A stretch of DNA of 53,500 bases from Ignavibacteriota bacterium (GTDB lineage Bacteria; Bacteroidota; Ignavibacteria; UBA10030; UBA6906), in NCBI GenBank assembly GCA_003162635.1, contig PMNE01000043.1:38192-91691 (forward strand), read 5' to 3'. The stretch's first letter is position 1. Each line of letters opens with the position of its first letter. Below are positions 1 through 7,188 of the stretch, piece after piece. The notes beneath the pieces were generated by a model, which saw only the letters and a list, made by a program, of their open reading frames with translations, was not told the origin of the DNA and did not search any database. Made by a program: the position numbers and the translations under genes.

Positions 1-2153
1 AAAGCCCATGCTATGCTGATGCCGTCGAATGTGCTCGTTCCTCTCCCCACTTCATCCAGCAGGATCAGGCTGCGCGGCGTGGCGGCGTTCACGATATGGG
101 CCGCTTCATGCATCTCCACCAGAAACGTGCTCTCGCCGGAGGAGATGTTGTCGCTTGCTCCCACGCGTGTGAAGATCCGGTCAACGATTCCCACGAAGGC
201 GCTTCGTGCAGGGACAAAGCTCCCAATTTGGGCGAGCAGGACGATAAGTCCTGTCTGCCGCAGGTAGCTCGACTTCCCGCTCATGTTCGGTCCGGTGATA
301 ATCAGAATCTGATCGGCGGAGGTATCGAGATGGACATTGTTGGGTATGTACGATTCCCCCGGTGGGAGGAGGCGCTCGATCACCGGATGGCGGCCATCGA
401 CGATATCGAGGACCGTGGAATCGTTGACTTCGGGACGGACGTACCGGTTCTCCACCGCCACGGAGGCAAGCGAACAGAGACAATCGAGCGTGGCGAGGAT
501 GCGTGCGTCGTCCTGGATGGTCTCCGCGTGCCCGGCAATGCGGAGTCGGAGGCCCTGAAAGAGTTCTGTCTCGAGCGCGAGGATCCGTTCTTCCGCGTGG
601 AGAATCTTCTCCTCGAACTCCTTCAACTCGGGAGTGACAAATCGCTCGGCATTGGCGAGGGTCTGTTTGCGGATGTAGTCCTGAGGCGCCTTTTCCCGGT
701 GCGTGTTGGTGATCTCGATGTAATACCCGAACACGTTGTTGAAACCCACCTTGAGGGAGGGAATCCCCGTCCGCTCCCGCTCGGTCTTCTGGAGGGCGGC
801 GATCCATTGCTTGCCGCCCAGCGCAAGAGAGCGGACCTCGTCAAGTTCCGGGTTGTACCCGGTGCGGATGACTCCCCCGTCGGCAAGGGTGGCGGGGGGA
901 TCGGGCTCGAGGGCGCTTTGGAGAAGCGACACGATCTCGGGGAGAGGATGAAGCCCCTCCCGGGACTCCCGGAGCAGGCCAGAGGTGGCGGGGGAAATGA
1001 CGCTCTGCAGGCCCGCTGTTGCAATGAGAATGGTCTGGAGTCCCGTCATGTCCCGGGGGGTCGCGCGTCCCGTGCAAATCCGCGTGTTGAGCCGTTCCAG
1101 GTCGCCGATCCCGGCCAGAATGTCGGTGCATCCTTCCCGCAGCCGCGCATTGGTAACCAGCTCCTCAACGGCGTCGAGACGGGCACGGATTGGCGTGACG
1201 GCATTGAGCGGTGCGTTCACCCATTGTTTGAGCAACCGCCCTCCCATGGGAGTTGAGGTCCGGTCAATGACCGTGAACAGAGATCCGGCTTCTGAACCCG
1301 CGGTCGTTGCCGTAATCTCAAGGTTCCTCTTCGTCGATGGATCGAGGACGATGTGGCTCCCAATGTCGTACCGGACGAGGCGCCGGATGTGGAGGAGGTT
1401 GGATTTCTGTGTCTCCTGCAGATACCCCAACACAGCACCGGCGGCCGCGACGCCTGTTTCCATCTCGTCGAGTCCGAAACCTTTGAGCGTCAGGGTGTCA
1501 AGCTCGCGCGTCAGGAGATCATAGGCGTAGTCGCGCGTGAAAAGCCAGTCGTCCCGCTTTGTATAGAGACCGCGAAAAGCAGGGCCGAGGATCTCTCGCA
1601 CGGCTTCCGCATCCCTCTTCTGAACAATGATTTCCGAAGGAGCAATGGATGCGACGTGCTCGGCGAGGGCGTAAAGGGGGATCTCGCCCACACGGAAGTC
1701 GGCAGTGGAGACATCGACAAAGGCGAAACCGACCGGGTCGTCATGGGTTGCAAGGGGGGACGAGAGAGCGACCGCCGCAAGGTAATTGTTCTGTTTCTGC
1801 TCCAGCACGCGGTCGGAGAATGCCACCCCGGGGGTGACGACTTCTACGACGTCCCGTTTGACGATCCCTTTGGCATGTTTGGGGTCTTCGAGTTGCTCGC
1901 AAACGGCGACACGGTACCCCGCCTTGAGAAGCTTGGGCAGGTACGTGTCGAGTGCGTGATGGGGGAATCCGGCAAGAGGGATTTCCCCGGCAGCGCCGTT
2001 GCCGCGCTTTGTCAATGTGATTCCCAGAACGCGCGAGGTGGTGGCTGCGTCTTCTTCAAACGTCTCGAAGAAATCGCCCATCCTGAAGAGGAGAATCGTG
2101 TCCGGGTAGCTCGCCTTGACGCGGGCATATTGCTGCATGAGGGGTGTTGACAT
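1..2153 (-). CDS. mutS: DNA mismatch repair protein MutS (C-terminus cut by window edge)
   Basis: MutS binds mismatched or looped DNA and starts methyl-independent or methyl-directed repair. The reading frame is open from the ATG at 2153-2151 to the window edge, giving about 717 of the usual 850-880 residues. Near the N-terminus is the mismatch-wedge motif GDFFETF (Phe28, Glu30). The ATPase domain carries the Walker A motif GPNMSGKSS at about residue 620, the signature SSGESTF, and the Walker B motif LLDEVGRGTSTFDG at about residue 698. The missing part is only the end of the ATPase domain and the dimerisation helices. The start MSTPLMQQYA is where the family begins. No Shine-Dalgarno sequence precedes it; a weak TTGATT-N17-TTAATT lies only 5 nt upstream of the ATG, so a leaderless mRNA is possible but uncertain. 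A 386-codon open frame on the other strand is antisense shadow. Confidence 0.97.
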   Translation of the reverse strand, partial: MSTPLMQQYARVKASYPDTILLFRMGDFFETFEEDAATTSRVLGITLTKRGNGAAGEIPLAGFPHHALDTYLPKLLKAGYRVAVCEQLEDPKHAKGIVKRDVVEVVTPGVAFSDRVLEQKQNNYLAAVALSSPLATHDDPVGFAFVDVSTADFRVGEIPLYALAEHVASIAPSEIIVQKRDAEAVREILGPAFRGLYTKRDDWLFTRDYAYDLLTRELDTLTLKGFGLDEMETGVAAAGAVLGYLQETQKSNLLHIRRLVRYDIGSHIVLDPSTKRNLEITATTAGSEAGSLFTVIDRTSTPMGGRLLKQWVNAPLNAVTPIRARLDAVEELVTNARLREGCTDILAGIGDLERLNTRICTGRATPRDMTGLQTILIATAGLQSVISPATSGLLRESREGLHPLPEIVSLLQSALEPDPPATLADGGVIRTGYNPELDEVRSLALGGKQWIAALQKTERERTGIPSLKVGFNNVFGYYIEITNTHREKAPQDYIRKQTLANAERFVTPELKEFEEKILHAEERILALETELFQGLRLRIAGHAETIQDDARILATLDCLCSLASVAVENRYVRPEVNDSTVLDIVDGRHPVIERLLPPGESYIPNNVHLDTSADQILIITGPNMSGKSSYLRQTGLIVLLAQIGSFVPARSAFVGIVDRIFTRVGASDNISSGESTFLVEMHEAAHIVNAATPRSLILLDEVGRGTSTFDGISIAWA

Positions 2154-2193
2154 GGAGGAATTAACTGAAAACGGGGGGAAAAATCAATGAAAC

Positions 2194-2220
2194 AAAAAAA
2201 GGGGAGGGTTTCCCCTCCCC
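2194..2220 (-). terminator. Rho-independent terminator of the pilin-like operon
   Basis: Positions 2201-2220 form a perfect 8-bp GC stem (GGGGAGGG / CCCTCCCC) with a 4-nt loop. Read on the minus strand it is followed by seven T (2200-2194). It sits 65 nt after the stop codon of the last pilin-like gene and just upstream of mutS, so it should separate the two transcription units. Confidence 0.9.
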
Positions 2221-2284
2221 GAAGAGACATTCGCAACGGCGTACTCAATCAAACAAAGGTTTCATAGTCTTGCCGTCGGGACTT

Positions 2285-3601
2285 TCAGTCCTCCCACCAG
2301 GAGACGAGTTCATAACTGTCGGAATATGGATAGCTCGGCGGTTGCAGCGAATCGAACCTTGCGTCATTGTGGATCCTGTACGAGAACCCGTTCAAAAATT
2401 GAAGCGGTGGTCCCGGGTTGAACACGCCGAGACTTCCGGCACTGATCTGGGTCACCCCGCCGAAGAGATTGACACTTCCGCTCACGGGAATGTTCCAGAA
2501 ATTCTCCGCAGTCAATTCCCCGTTCTGACAATAGACGGCCGCCTGGATATTGAGCTGGGAAGATGCGTTGCGTGTGTTGTCCTGAGTGATATACGCCATC
2601 CGTCCGGCGACGATACCGAGCATGTCGGGAGAGCTCGGATTGTTGACCGGGTTTATCTTCGCAGTGACACTGCCGTCTATCCATACATTTCCCTTGTTGA
2701 CCGCTGCCCCGGTTCCCGAAAAGGCCGCAACGGTGAGTGACCCGGAGTAAACCCCCTTGATACGGAGATCAGCGTTCTTGACGACCATGACGCCGCCCGG
2801 GGCCAGGGTGGTAATAGGCATCGTCGTATCCATCCCCCCTCCCCCCGGAGGAGACTGGACGCGCACGTTGTCATTGATAAAGGTCAGTGCCACATCTTTC
2901 CCCCCGTTCGCGTTGCCATCATAGTACCATCCTGCTGCTGCAGTGAGTCTGGCCTCCAGGGCGGAAGTGTTCGGGCGCTTTTTCTGAATGCCCCACTGGA
3001 ACCCCCCGTTGTAGACCGGGTTGGCGGTGGGACCAAGTACCGCCGCGAGGCTTCCGGTGATCTTGTCATGGAAATACGGCGTGCCATCGAAATTAAAATG
3101 GTTGTTGGTGTGTGCCGGGCCCCATACCGAATCACCCGTGATCTTCCAGTCGGCGTACCCGTAGTACGGTCCCTTGTTGCCGTTCTTGTCGATGTATCCG
3201 TTGATTTCGCTCTCGGTGAACCAGCTGAACTTTGCAAACTGGACGTGCTTGAATACCCCCTCGACGGTGTCACGGTATTGAATTCCATTCTGGTCTGACA
3301 TATTCGTCACGGCGACGCTCCGCAACGTCACCCAGAGCGGTTGAGGAAGGTCCGGAATGTAGCTAATGGAATCCCTTCCACCGAAGAAGGTCACGCCGAA
3401 ATTCGGCGGAGCACTCCCCCTGTTGAGCAAATAGTTCGTTCCGACATTTGCTCCCGACACCGCAATGTTATGCACTTGGGTCGTTGAGTAGTAGCCCATA
3501 TAGGCATCGACTGTTTTTACGCTGTTCTGACCGATATTGGTCAGGGCTATCCCGACGAGCAGAGTCAGCCCTATGACATAGACGATGGTCGATTTGCCCA
3601 T
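2285..3601 (-). CDS. PilX-like exported protein with N-terminal membrane anchor, 438 aa
   Basis: Function unknown. The protein starts with a short positive stretch and one hydrophobic helix (about residues 5-22, starting MGKSTIVYVIGLTLLVG), followed by a long extracytoplasmic domain rich in Gly, Asn, Ser and Thr. That domain includes a Gly-Pro-Pro-rich linker near the middle and a beta-strand-rich C-terminal half with repeated GSV/GNV turns. This layout resembles PilX or DUF4900-like pilus accessory proteins. There is no GFxxxE prepilin leader. The start at 3601 has a good ribosome site (GAGGGAAG). It is the last gene of a three-gene operon, 11 nt after the PilW-like gene, and ends before a strong terminator. 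A role as tip or accessory subunit of a surface fibre is inference from architecture and neighbours. Confidence 0.75.
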   Translation of the reverse strand: MGKSTIVYVIGLTLLVGIALTNIGQNSVKTVDAYMGYYSTTQVHNIAVSGANVGTNYLLNRGSAPPNFGVTFFGGRDSISYIPDLPQPLWVTLRSVAVTNMSDQNGIQYRDTVEGVFKHVQFAKFSWFTESEINGYIDKNGNKGPYYGYADWKITGDSVWGPAHTNNHFNFDGTPYFHDKITGSLAAVLGPTANPVYNGGFQWGIQKKRPNTSALEARLTAAAGWYYDGNANGGKDVALTFINDNVRVQSPPGGGGMDTTMPITTLAPGGVMVVKNADLRIKGVYSGSLTVAAFSGTGAAVNKGNVWIDGSVTAKINPVNNPSSPDMLGIVAGRMAYITQDNTRNASSQLNIQAAVYCQNGELTAENFWNIPVSGSVNLFGGVTQISAGSLGVFNPGPPLQFLNGFSYRIHNDARFDSLQPPSYPYSDSYELVSWWED

Positions 3602-3612
3602 GATCTTCCCTC

Positions 3613-4215
3613 TTAGCCGTGACGTTTAATGTTTCGCGAAGCGAGCCGCGTCTGTCGCCAGTACGCCGCCGCATATTCAGAGTTTTCCGTGTTCACCGCT
3701 GCCTGAACCTGATAGGGACTTTCCACGCGCAATGAAACCTCTATAGTCCAGATTTGACTGTAGAGAGACGTCGACAGGGGGGGGATCTCCGTGCCGTGCG
3801 CATCGAAATACCGCAACTTAAATTGTGTGACACCAAGTCCGGCTGCTCCGCCCGCGTCCTCTTGATTGAGCTTCCTGTAGAGCACCCGGATGGCCGGATT
3901 CGGCAGGGTGGTCAGGGGAGCACCTGCGAACCATTCGACGCTGTCGACAGAACCATCCCGGTCCATATCCGCATAGAACTTGATATGGGAGGTATCGGCG
4001 AGCGCGATGCACATTTTCGGATCGGCAACGTGATATCCGATCTTGCGAAAGTCATATTCCAGATTGCGGACGAGCTCACTCATCGATTCCTGCACGTTGA
4101 GGTTTGTCACGGAAGAGGTGGCGGTCCCCATGATCGACCCATTAAGCTGCAATCCCATAAGGATGACGTAGCCTGCGATAATGACGGAACCGATGATATC
4201 AAGCATGACGGACAT
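3613..4215 (-). CDS. PilW/PulJ-like minor pilin homologue without leader peptide, 200 aa
   Basis: The N-terminal helix (residues 4-22, starting MLDIIGSVIIAG) has the spacing of a mature type IV pilin helix, with Asp6 where pilins have Glu5. The next segment, SELVRNLEYDFRKIGYHVAD (residues 46-65), is typical of PilW/PulJ minor pilins. The C-terminal motif TQFKLRYFDAHGTE, followed by IWTIEVSLRVES, also matches that family as I know it. No leader with a Gly-Phe or Gly-Met cleavage site precedes the helix, so the protein may stay anchored. The ATG at 4215 has an AGGAAG ribosome site 9 nt upstream. It lies 28 nt after the first gene and 11 nt before the PilX-like gene. Assignment to the pilin superfamily is moderately supported; function is inferred. 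Confidence 0.75.
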   Translation of the reverse strand: MSVMLDIIGSVIIAGYVILMGLQLNGSIMGTATSSVTNLNVQESMSELVRNLEYDFRKIGYHVADPKMCIALADTSHIKFYADMDRDGSVDSVEWFAGAPLTTLPNPAIRVLYRKLNQEDAGGAAGLGVTQFKLRYFDAHGTEIPPLSTSLYSQIWTIEVSLRVESPYQVQAAVNTENSEYAAAYWRQTRLASRNIKRHG

Positions 4216-4243
4216 GGATGCTCTTCCTTTCCCGAAAAGATCG

Positions 4244-4810
4244 TTAGTTCCAGTAGCTCATGATGGAAGGATACACAAGGGTATCATTGGAAGACGGACT
4301 TGTGACCGTCACGATGATCTTCTTATGCCAGGTCTGCCTTATGGTATATGCGACGTCGAGATTAGGTGGATTGACGTAGCAAACGGTACAGTGCACAAAG
4401 TACTTCGCTCGAATACCGGGAATAATCGTCTCCCAGTTGGAGCCCGGCGTCGAGGCGGTGTCCGCAGCGACGTTACTTTTGTAAACGAGGAACAACCCAT
4501 TAAAATCATCAAAGTCATTGAAGTCTTTTGCCCCGTGATAACTCTCCCCCACATCAGGTCCGAGCAATGCGGGAGTCGTAAAGTAGCTCGAATCATAGAC
4601 AGCCGCTGCGTTTGTGTCGGCAATGGCCTTGTCGAACATCTTCCCGCTGGCTTCCTCGACGATCGAGGTGGCCAGCGAGATCGCTGTGACACCAAACTCA
4701 CTGGTGTACATTGTATCGGTTGCCTGGTATACGCTGGAGTTCGCATTAAGAATGAGAACGCCGAGCAAGACAACAGCTCCGATGACCAGCATCATTTGAC
4801 CGAGATTCAT
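4244..4810 (-). CDS. Pilin-like membrane-anchored protein (PilV-like position), 188 aa
   Basis: First gene of the operon. I chose the ATG at 4810 (MNLGQMMLVIGAVV) because a GGTGA ribosome site lies 5-7 nt upstream and the hydrophobic helix begins right there. An in-frame ATG at 4837 would add nine unlikely residues. Residues 5-22 form one membrane helix, followed by about 165 extracytoplasmic residues. A pair of close cysteines (FVHCTVCYVN) lies around residue 145 and could form a disulfide or bind a metal. Like its two neighbours it looks like a mature pilin or pseudopilin lacking a leader peptide. It occupies the place PilV holds in pilVWX clusters. Similarity to a named family is weak. Confidence 0.7.
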   Translation of the reverse strand: MNLGQMMLVIGAVVLLGVLILNANSSVYQATDTMYTSEFGVTAISLATSIVEEASGKMFDKAIADTNAAAVYDSSYFTTPALLGPDVGESYHGAKDFNDFDDFNGLFLVYKSNVAADTASTPGSNWETIIPGIRAKYFVHCTVCYVNPPNLDVAYTIRQTWHKKIIVTVTSPSSNDTLVYPSIMSYWN

Positions 4811-4840
4811 TGCTTCACCGCAGTATGGTGAGACCATAAC

Positions 4841-4874
4841 GGCCTCTTCGCGGAACAGTCGTAAGAGGCCTCTT
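4841..4874 (-). promoter_or_regulatory. Foldable leader element upstream of the pilin-like operon
   Basis: In the leader of the minus-strand operon, 31-64 nt before its first ATG, GGCCTCTT at 4841-4848 can pair with AAGAGGCC at 4863-4870 (8-bp stem, 14-nt loop). The second element is itself part of a 12-nt palindrome, AAGAGGCCTCTT (4863-4874), so two foldings exclude each other. A further GC hairpin (CCGGGG / CCCCGG) lies at 4925-4941. The 354-nt gap 4811-5164 holds these structures, the palindrome at 5001 and the terminator at 5061, and no gene. Confidence 0.4.
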
Positions 4875-5000
4875 CAAACAAAGAACAAAGTGTCAAAACA
4901 CTCACAGATCCTGACTGACAACTTCCGGGGAAGACCCCCGGAGACCAGAAAAGGACCGCTACATCCTGGGATCACGTTAGAGAAATCCTGCGAATATAGC

Positions 5001-5016
5001 TGTGACGTAGTTCACA
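5001..5016. promoter_or_regulatory. CRP/FNR-type operator (TGTGA-N6-TCACA)
   Basis: The sequence is a perfect match to the TGTGA-N6-TCACA consensus of the CRP/FNR superfamily. It lies about 190 nt upstream of the first pilin-like gene and faces no other start codon. Two placements are possible on the minus strand. With a -10 of TAACGT (4974-4979) the dyad is centred near -41.5, the classic activator position. With TATATT (4994-4999) as -10 the dyad fills the spacer and would repress. A degenerate second copy, TGTGA-N6-TGCAC, lies at 5033-5048. Confidence 0.55.
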
Positions 5017-5060
5017 AGAGCATGGTACTGTGTGTGACTTGAGTGCACTTAGGTTACGGC

Positions 5061-5099
5061 AAAAAAAGAAGCGCTCAAAATCACACGATTTTGGCGCTT
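5061..5099 (-). terminator. Rho-independent terminator after the methyltransferase/MTHFR gene
   Basis: The inverted repeat AAGCGC-(T)-CAAAATC / GATTTTG-GCGCTT (5069-5099, 4-nt loop) is followed on the minus strand by C and then seven T (5067-5061). It lies 66 nt past the stop codon of the gene ending at 5165 and separates it from the pilin-like operon. Confidence 0.88.
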
Positions 5100-5164
5100 T
5101 TGCGATCTCTCCGCTCTTGCCCCGAAAATGCGAGATCAACAAAGATATGCCGATCAGCCACTTT

Positions 5165-7009
5165 TCATGATAACTCTCCTCCGAGGATAGAGAATATCCC
5201 GTCGATTCTCCCCATGGGCGCAGAAAGCTGAACACCGGCTACTTCCCCCCGGACCTGTTCAAAGGTGTCGCGCGCGATCGCAACTCCCTCCGCGAATCCT
5301 TCCTCCTTTGTCGTCGTTCTCCTCATCCGCTCCATGATTTCGGGTGGGACGCTTGCCCCCGGGACTTCGTTGTTCATGAACTCGGCATTCCGGTAGGAGA
5401 CAAGCGGCCATATCCCGCAGAGCAACGGCTGCTTGATGTGCGCGATTCGCTTCATGAACCGTTCAAGGATCCGGAGATCAAAGACCGGCTGCGTGATGAT
5501 GTACTCCGCCCCCGCTTCGATCTTCCAATCGAGGCGCCTAAGCTCCTCATCCATGTTGATCGCGCCGGGGTTGGCTCCGACGCCGATACTGAACCCGGTC
5601 GGCTCGCCGATGGGGTTCCCGGCGAGGTCGAGTCCATGGTTGAGCCGATTCATGACGTTGGTGAGGCCGATCGCGTCGACATCGAAGACCGCAGTGGCAT
5701 TCGGATAACTCCCAAGCTTCGGCGGATCTCCCGTCACAGCGAGGACATTGCGCACACCGAGCGCCCACGCACCGAGCAGGTCCGATTGCATGCCGATGAC
5801 ATTCCGGTCGCGACAAGCGAAGTGGAGGACCGCTTCGATCCCCACTTCGCGCTGGATGATCGCCGAAAGGACGAGCGCAGACATGCGTGCCGAGGCACGC
5901 GGTCCGTCGGGGATATTGATCGCGTCAATACCGAAATGGTGGAGCCGCCGGGCCTTCGCAACTTCCTTGGCAGGTGACACGCCTTTCGGCGAAACCAATT
6001 CCACAAGCGTGACAAACTGCTTCTTGGCCAGTCTTGTTGCGAGTCGGGATTTTTCCGTCGGCTCGTAGACGTGAACGGCCTCCGGAGCAACGACAGCCAG
6101 TTCTGTTCCGGACACATCCATCCGCTTCACCGGGCGGAGGGCCCGGACAGCCCGCCTGATGGCGCGAATGTGCGCGGGATTTGTCCCGCAGCAGCCGCCG
6201 ACGATCGTTGCGCCCGTCTGAATGAAACGCTTCGCATACTCCGCCATGTACTCCGGCGACGTCATGTAGATGTTGCGCCCCCCGATGCTTTGCGGCAGAC
6301 CGGCATTGGGCTGGACGGAAATGGGAAGGGGGGTGAGCGTCTTCAACGTCTCAAGCGCTTCGAGCATCGACTTCGGTCCGACAGAACAATTGAGCCCGAT
6401 CGTGTCAACGCCGGAATCGCCGACCGCTTTGACAAAGCTCTCGAGCGTCGCACCGCTCAGGAGATTGCCGTCGTCGTTGATCGTCACCTGCGCCATGATC
6501 GGGGTGTCGGGGTTGACCTCCTTGACGGCGCGGATCGCCTGCAGTAACTCAGGGACGAGAACGAACGTCTCCAGTATGATCATGTCGGCTCCCCCGTCCA
6601 GAAGACCCTTCACCTGCTCACGGAATGCCTCCCGCGCCTCCTCGAAGGAGACCTTCCCGAGCGGTTCGATCAGTACTCCGAGCGGGCCGACGGATCCCGC
6701 GACAAGGGTCTCGTCGCCGGCAACGGCTTTTGCAAGCTGGGCCCCCCGCTTGGCGATCTCGTAGGCCTTCTTCTCGAGGCCGTGGGCCGCCAGCCGAAAG
6801 CGGTTGGCGCCGAAGGTGTTCGTCTCGATGACGTCTGCACCGGCGGTGACATATTCACGGTGCACCTCGGTCACGATGTCGGGATTGGTGAGGTTCAGCT
6901 CATCGTAACAGGTGTTGATAAAAACCCCCTTTTCATACAGGTATGTACCGACCCCCCCGTCAAAGACGATGACCTCATTCTCCCGCAGGCGCTCTCGAAG
7001 ACCTTTCAT
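5165..7009 (-). CDS. Bifunctional homocysteine S-methyltransferase / methylenetetrahydrofolate reductase (YitJ type)
   Basis: Two enzymes of methionine and one-carbon metabolism in one 614-residue chain. The N-terminal half is a Zn-dependent homocysteine S-methyltransferase barrel with its three zinc cysteines at Cys208 (GLNCSVGP), Cys273 and Cys274 (GGCCGTNP). The C-terminal half, from about residue 315, is a MetF-type flavin barrel (FACRDRN, AVTGDPP, FSIGVGANPG) that reduces methylene-THF. Length and order match YitJ of Bacillus. I chose the ATG at 7009 because MKGLRERLRE leads straight into the conserved VFDGGVGTYL. An upstream in-frame ATG at 7165 would add 52 residues lying across the promoter. 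Transcribed from a TTGGTC-N17-TATACT promoter, divergent from pepF, and ended by the terminator at 5061. Confidence 0.93.
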   Translation of the reverse strand: MKGLRERLRENEVIVFDGGVGTYLYEKGVFINTCYDELNLTNPDIVTEVHREYVTAGADVIETNTFGANRFRLAAHGLEKKAYEIAKRGAQLAKAVAGDETLVAGSVGPLGVLIEPLGKVSFEEAREAFREQVKGLLDGGADMIILETFVLVPELLQAIRAVKEVNPDTPIMAQVTINDDGNLLSGATLESFVKAVGDSGVDTIGLNCSVGPKSMLEALETLKTLTPLPISVQPNAGLPQSIGGRNIYMTSPEYMAEYAKRFIQTGATIVGGCCGTNPAHIRAIRRAVRALRPVKRMDVSGTELAVVAPEAVHVYEPTEKSRLATRLAKKQFVTLVELVSPKGVSPAKEVAKARRLHHFGIDAINIPDGPRASARMSALVLSAIIQREVGIEAVLHFACRDRNVIGMQSDLLGAWALGVRNVLAVTGDPPKLGSYPNATAVFDVDAIGLTNVMNRLNHGLDLAGNPIGEPTGFSIGVGANPGAINMDEELRRLDWKIEAGAEYIITQPVFDLRILERFMKRIAHIKQPLLCGIWPLVSYRNAEFMNNEVPGASVPPEIMERMRRTTTKEEGFAEGVAIARDTFEQVRGEVAGVQLSAPMGRIDGIFSILGGELS

Positions 7010-7054
7010 TCTTTCACTTCTCCCGGACGGATAAGATTGTGCAAAATGCTCCAC

Positions 7055-7068
7055 GGTGCAGATGCACC
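7055..7068. promoter_or_regulatory. Perfect inverted repeat at the start of the methyltransferase/MTHFR transcript
   Basis: GGTGCA-GA-TGCACC lies immediately downstream of the predicted transcription start (about 7071) of the minus-strand gene. It could be an operator or a short hairpin at the mRNA 5' end. I know no regulator with exactly this site. Confidence 0.4.
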
Positions 7069-7077
7069 TTCTTCTAT

Positions 7078-7106
7078 AGTATACAAAGTTTCCTCTTCTC
7101 GACCAA
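7078..7106 (-). promoter_or_regulatory. Sigma-70 promoter of the methyltransferase/MTHFR gene
   Basis: -35 TTGGTC (7106-7101), 17-nt spacer, -10 TATACT (7083-7078), minus strand. The predicted start near 7071 gives a leader of about 60 nt, too short for a SAM riboswitch. Confidence 0.65.
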
Positions 7107-7126
7107 GAACTGTACGCGCGGGCGGG

Positions 7127-7155
7127 TTGTTGTTTCTCCCCCGAAATCGTACATT
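7127..7155 (+). promoter_or_regulatory. Sigma-70 promoter of pepF
   Basis: -35 TTGTTG (7127-7132), 17-nt spacer, -10 TACATT (7150-7155). The predicted start near 7162 gives a leader of about 27 nt that includes the AGGAG ribosome site. The -35 lies 20 bp from that of the divergent promoter. Confidence 0.55.
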
Positions 7156-7188
7156 TTACGCACATCCATCAAAGGAGATCAGGGCCTC

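Follow-up and report, generated by a model that had tools for sequence, protein, structure and literature searches.

Analysis of a 53,500-nucleotide stretch of DNA from an Ignavibacteriota bacterium (contig PMNE01000043.1; hereafter the window) revealed three tandem open reading frames on the minus strand, here called V, W and X, which encode pilin-like proteins that start without a leader peptide. Gene V (4244..4810) encodes a protein of 188 amino acids (MNLGQMMLVIGAVVLLG...) that resembles a minor pilin of the GspI/PilV position, gene W (3613..4215) a GspJ/PilW-like minor pilin of 200 amino acids (MSVMLDIIGSVIIAG...) with an invariant Asp6, and gene X (2285..3601) a protein of 438 amino acids (MGKSTIVYVIGLTLLVG...) at the GspK/PilX position, for which the family alignment shows a large divergent periplasmic domain. 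One hydrophobic helix opens each protein, and the basic Gly-Phe-x4-Glu leader is found in none of them. The reading frame of V can start at 4810 (MNLGQ...) or at 4837, the latter start prefixing MVSPYCGEA. The start is most likely 4810, because close relatives of V begin at MNLGQ, and the MVSPYCGEA extension is not a class III leader either. Shine-Dalgarno-like sequences lie directly 5' of the annotated starts of W (GGAAAGGAAG) and X (GAGGGAAG).

The proportions of non-synonymous (pN) and synonymous (pS) differences were calculated against relatives at 64-70% identity, and range from 0.19 to 0.25 and from 0.70 to 0.79, respectively, for the genes of the trio, with synonymous sites close to saturation. 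For V alone, the comparison with close relatives gave a pN of 0.19-0.21 and a pS of 0.72-0.77. The three genes look to be under purifying selection. Homologues of W were found in 53 of 60 related genomes, commonly in several copies per genome, and close relatives are Ignavibacteriae metagenome-assembled genomes from fens. Since pN is low compared with pS and W is so widely distributed, V, W and X are not chance reading frames. The reading frames and the selection data thus bear out the original prediction of three tandem genes that each have an N-terminal helix and lack a basic Gly-Phe-x4-Glu leader. Scans of the three window proteins against Pfam and NCBIfam returned nothing usable; DUF4900 was matched by 20 of 45 members of the X family (best E 3.1e-6), and weakly by X of the window (E 0.024).

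The three-gene synteny for which a search in relatives had been proposed is conserved, with V on one flank and X on the other flank of the W gene almost everywhere in the related loci. Twelve loci of the taxonomic order share the arrangement leaderless pilins (M)-PilC-PilB-V-W-X-PilT-PilM-PilN/O-like-PilQ, and five further loci, cut by contig ends, have the same arrangement for the portion present. The sister genus has trios that share 64-70% identity with that of the window, and these are located inside this machine cluster, between PilB and PilT; the window trio is therefore probably a detached part of the cluster. In the W tree, W of the window groups with the cluster trios of the sister genus and with orphan trios, and two further trios of one sister-genus genome fall together with those found in the clusters of other genera. 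From this branching, the trios appear to be interchangeable, moving between the machine cluster and sites outside it. We also observed four V-W-X trios side by side in two orientations (L025:222-11053, G032:C30), a local expansion of tip cassettes, and, in a different lineage of the phylum, a tandem pair of divergent trios flanked by PilB and PilT (L127 and L128, from G152 and G098).

A full machine cluster, from which the trio alone is missing, is present on another contig (C57) of the window's own genome. It encodes a PilB-type ATPase (T2SSE, E 6e-61), three leaderless M pilins, PilC (T2SSF), a second PilB (E 1.8e-99), PilT (TIGR01420 score of 317.9 bits, slightly below the cut-off of 319.1), a PilM-like protein with a weak match to the Amuc_1101 family (E 8e-5), a protein at the PilN/O position with no family match, and a secretin (E 2.5e-27). 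The cluster therefore has two PilB-type ATPases, and assembly ATPase, platform and secretin (T2SSE, T2SSF, Secretin) are encoded together with the pilins both here and in the clusters of the relatives. The PilB-type ATPase encoded 5' of the leaderless pilins on this contig (L068:2594-4450, minus strand) is a second, divergent one with a weak match (E 1.2e-4) to MshEN, a domain of the c-di-GMP-binding type. The original prediction had described the trio as standing alone. No ATPase, platform or peptidase gene adjoins it in the window, as stated, but the genome does hold a machine cluster. The suggestion of a permanently anchored, stand-alone complex is not supported, as the closest trios are flanked by PilB and PilT within a complete cluster and the own genome has such a cluster.

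To describe the N-termini of the trio proteins and of the M pilins, we surveyed the starts of 175 M, V, W and X genes. No in-frame ATG, GTG or TTG precedes the start in 33 of 33 M, 43 of 47 V, 41 of 47 W and 42 of 48 X genes, so that space for a leader is absent in 159 of the 175 genes, a count in which some rows represent one gene in two overlapping loci and a few starts are misplaced by the automatic choice. Upstream starts that restore a real leader would have refuted the original prediction. Even when seven start codons were allowed, 117 of the 175 genes had no upstream in-frame start, and the median distance to the upstream in-frame stop was only 4-6 codons. Shine-Dalgarno cores precede 22 of 32 M starts, compared with 6.4 in shuffled sequences, and the excess at the V, W and X starts is positive but weaker; these sites point to the short starts and support them as the right ones. 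In 20 loci from further families and classes within the phylum, MGQQQLLL or a near variant again stands at residue 1 of every M protein. The MG start is very common in M, in X and in many W proteins, and W and V also show MS, MT, MA and MN starts. The hydrophilic, Gly-ended class III leader ahead of the helix, by which type IV pilins and pseudopilins are recognised, is lacking in the trio and in M, and we conclude from the gene starts that leaders are absent, not overlooked, in all four proteins. The net charge on the N-terminal side of the helix is near zero in M, V and W and positive in X, and it is negative just past the helix, a pattern that fits an N-in topology. Two genomes (G074, G075) hold up to ten leaderless-pilin copies each, many of them away from the machine cluster.

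A search for the prepilin peptidase (A24) with PF01478 found no match in the window's own genome, which is 98% complete, nor in 69 of the 75 near-complete genomes of the taxonomic order, the remaining six being positive. PF06750 agrees, with near-full-length matches in five of these six genomes and short partial matches elsewhere. Among the same 75 genomes, the leaderless pilin is present in 70 and the T2SSE ATPase family in 71. The suggestion that leaders may be dispensable in this lineage is supported by these data and extends beyond what the window alone could show, as the M pilins are leaderless too and most genomes of the taxonomic order have no peptidase gene. Across 392 sampled genomes of the phylum, the leaderless pilin occurs in 137, of which 122 give no PF01478 match; in this sample no statistical association of the leaderless pilin with a missing A24 was found (odds ratio 0.89), and A24 is simply rare in the phylum. 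Of 14 control genomes, 12 were positive for A24 with the same profiles.

Eighteen peptidase loci were read, and in 16 of them a leader-bearing prepilin (e.g. ...GFSLTELMVVLVIIG) belonging to a separate machine is encoded no more than a few kilobases away, usually adjoining, with the prepilin of one locus (L149) spotted by eye. The peptidase thus goes with leaders, and these loci are an internal control showing that the methods detect real leaders. Some relatives have a leader-bearing system besides the leaderless one. N_methyl matches were checked in the genomes without A24, and two of them (G012 and G073) hold leader-bearing proteins outside any machine cluster, which are possibly contamination. 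Two single loci stand beside these results: one classical leader-bearing pseudopilin, GFSLTELMVVLVIIG, was found at L080 (G030:C6:31832-31903), in a genome in which no A24 peptidase was found, and a divergent A24-family gene at L162 (G053:C25:7391-7741) has no prepilin or machine gene nearby.

The predicted structure of W (pLDDT, predicted local distance difference test, 78.6) consists of a 56-residue helix (residues 2-57) followed by beta strands. Its only significant structural matches in Foldseek are two chains of the XcpV-XcpW minor pseudopilin complex (5bw0; E 3.4e-4 with probability 1.00, and E 5.1e-4), which are taken from their length to be XcpW (GspJ). The model suggests a pilin-like fold for W, and the comparison supports the PilW/PulJ likeness originally noticed in the middle protein. 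Asp6 is invariant in the W alignment and is aligned with the Glu of Thermus TTHA1219 (E 0.1), while residue 5 is Gln in M and mostly Gln in V, and X has no acidic residue there. The comparison of W with three GspJ-like proteins by hhalign was negative, with small alignments. The V profile gave a modest full-length alignment with W (E 5e-4), and it also aligns with the N-terminus of M. The M model (pLDDT 88) has a helix at residues 3-55 and a four-stranded domain, and a hydrophobic N-terminal helix of about 20 residues that continues as a long alpha1 is seen in both the W and M models; V and X share the hydrophobic start.

The trio of the window is flanked by mutS and by a homocysteine S-methyltransferase/MTHFR gene, as named from the sequence. 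In another genus of the family (L033, G011:C51), a trio also lies between mutS and MTHFR, as in positions 1-7165 of the window, although its W protein belongs to a different branch of the W tree from W of the window despite the matching neighbours. Upstream of V, a perfect 12-nucleotide palindrome, AAGAGGCCTCTT (4863-4874), and a half-site of it, GGCCTCTT (4841-4848), were read from the sequence, neither of them assigned to a strand, and together (4841..4874) they are a possible operator of the trio. A consensus scan placed a terminator-like hairpin, GGGGAGGGGAAACCCTCCCC, with a T-run on the minus strand 3' of X (2194..2220, with the hairpin and T-run also given as 2220-2201). The scan gave three patterns, all of them readings of this one hairpin, compared with 2.7 expected in shuffled sequences, and the hairpin by itself is statistically unremarkable. 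No riboswitch was found with Rfam at the trio operon or at eight related loci.

We consider it likely that V-W-X supply the minor subunits, for tip or priming, of a machine that makes type IV filaments in Ignavibacteria and their relatives, one in which all pilins are leaderless and the prepilin peptidase is unneeded. With slightly less confidence, we also regard this machine as probably one of a widespread bacterial class, present in Ignavibacteria and several other lineages of the phylum, in which pilins are translated mature, without leader, peptidase or N-methylation, and in which V-W-X tip cassettes are exchangeable and several occur per genome. The prepilin peptidase also performs N-methylation. 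In such a machine, translation would begin at or beside the first residue of the mature pilin, and deformylase and methionine aminopeptidase would trim the MG, MS and MA starts and leave MN starts intact. The uncleaved hydrophobic helix would act as a signal-anchor in the inner membrane and leave the globular part on the periplasmic side. As gene order, the fold of W and the position in the cluster suggest, V, W and X may form a tip complex like GspI-J-K or PilV-W-X that primes and caps the filament; PilC and PilB would add the leaderless major subunits M (MGQQQLLL...) beneath this tip, and the filament would cross a PilQ-type secretin and be retracted by PilT. The computations themselves show the leaderless starts, the missing peptidase gene, the place of the trio in the clusters of relatives, the machine genes of the own genome and the pilin-like model of W; assembly, tip role, retraction and N-terminal processing are inferred from known machines.

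Several observations weigh against this interpretation. Against XcpV-XcpW, W reaches modest TM-scores of 0.38-0.49. For M, Foldseek gave no significant pilin match, the best PDB sequence matches are type IV pilins at weak E values (0.04-0.2), the best match to the ComP_DUS profile has an E of 0.0012, and hhalign against classical pilins of the phylum was negative, with small alignments. The pilin identity proposed for V and X draws on gene order, the N-terminus and, in V only, the match to the W profile. Moreover, no filament of this machine is known, and a peptidase of a novel family may conceivably exist, though nothing is present for it to cut.

An alternative that we consider unlikely is that the trio is derived from pilins but is permanently anchored in the membrane and never enters a filament, with leader loss marking lost polymerisation. 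This would agree with the isolated window trio, with the leaderless V, W and X and with the lack of an observed filament, but the major-pilin-like M of the same clusters is leaderless too, and the genes for the PilB and PilT motors flank the trio, with PilC and PilQ in the same cluster, whereas a static complex needs no two opposite motors. That leaders or peptidase simply escaped detection, through non-standard upstream starts or through a peptidase of another family that cuts a short N-terminus (e.g. after the Gly of MG), seems quite improbable. In class III leaders the cut follows a Gly, MG starts are very common in M, X and many W, and the absence of A24 is drawn from profile searches; the nearby upstream stops, the 117 genes lacking any of seven upstream start codons and the Shine-Dalgarno sites at the short starts speak against it nevertheless, as do the MS, MT, MA and MN starts of W and V, which offer no Gly there, and the success of the same profiles in the control genomes and beside the leader-bearing pilins of relatives. 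Gene order and sizes that fit GspI-J-K and PilV-W-X, the alignment of the V profile with W and with the N-terminus of M, and the helix at residue 1 common to V, W and X make it very improbable that V and X are unrelated single-pass membrane proteins, such as a scaffold or an adhesin, travelling with W and the machine, a view that would draw on the large divergent domain of X and on the lack of a recognisable pilin domain in both proteins.

The likeness of the leaderless trio to GspI-J-K (XcpV-W-X) and PilV-W-X lies in three genes in a row with one N-terminal hydrophobic helix each, in the predicted XcpV-XcpW-like fold of W and in the location within a machine cluster in relatives. Unlike these sets, the trio has no leader or Gly-Phe-x4-Glu site, Glu5 is replaced by Asp6 in W and mostly by Gln5 in V, with no acidic residue in X, and several alternative trios occur per genome. 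V-W-X would thus work like minor pilins and are probably derived from them, but are not standard members, because the proteins lack the leader and the machine lacks the peptidase. Similarly, two PilB-type ATPases, PilT, PilC/GspF, a PilM-like protein and a secretin in one cluster recall the type IVa pilus and type II secretion, but M begins with MGQQQLLL at residue 1 and the peptidase is absent from the cluster and mostly also from the genome. Type IV pili, type II secretion systems and archaella are regarded as defined in part by a step in which a dedicated peptidase removes the leader, and the leaderless, peptidase-free machine is an apparent exception to a rule thought valid for a whole class of bacterial machines.

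The classical Bacteroidota type II secretion system of Cytophaga hutchinsonii (CHU_3191-3201), which by our reading belongs to the same phylum, is the same kind of machine but has Peptidase_A24 and typical pseudopilins (PMC5553014). The mitochondrial type II secretion system (miT2SS) uses GspG without the GspO prepilin peptidase; however, its GspG is made with a long presequence, which another protease is thought to remove, whereas the leaderless pilins have no presequence at all (PMC10128026). The type IV filament superfamily has been described with prepilin peptidase throughout, sometimes shared between systems; MSH loci lack their own, but their genomes hold another system with one, and none was detected in Nanoarchaeota (PMC6668835, PMC4471445). 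In Melioribacter roseus, pilT, pilQ, pilB and pilC were reported while pilA and pilD could not be found (PMC3534657). This is the pattern expected of a leaderless machine, and the missing pilA may be a leaderless pilin. Our literature search, with most subscription journals outside its scope, found no paper that describes leaderless pilins; on these and on pili without a peptidase it gave nothing beyond miT2SS and the remark on Melioribacter. If our interpretation is true, leader removal would be dispensable for membrane extraction and polymerisation, the pilA and pilD genes reported missing in M. roseus despite pilB, pilC, pilT and pilQ (PMC3534657) would be explained, and type IV filaments in many genomes would have been overlooked by annotation and by system finders keyed on the leader or the N_methyl motif.
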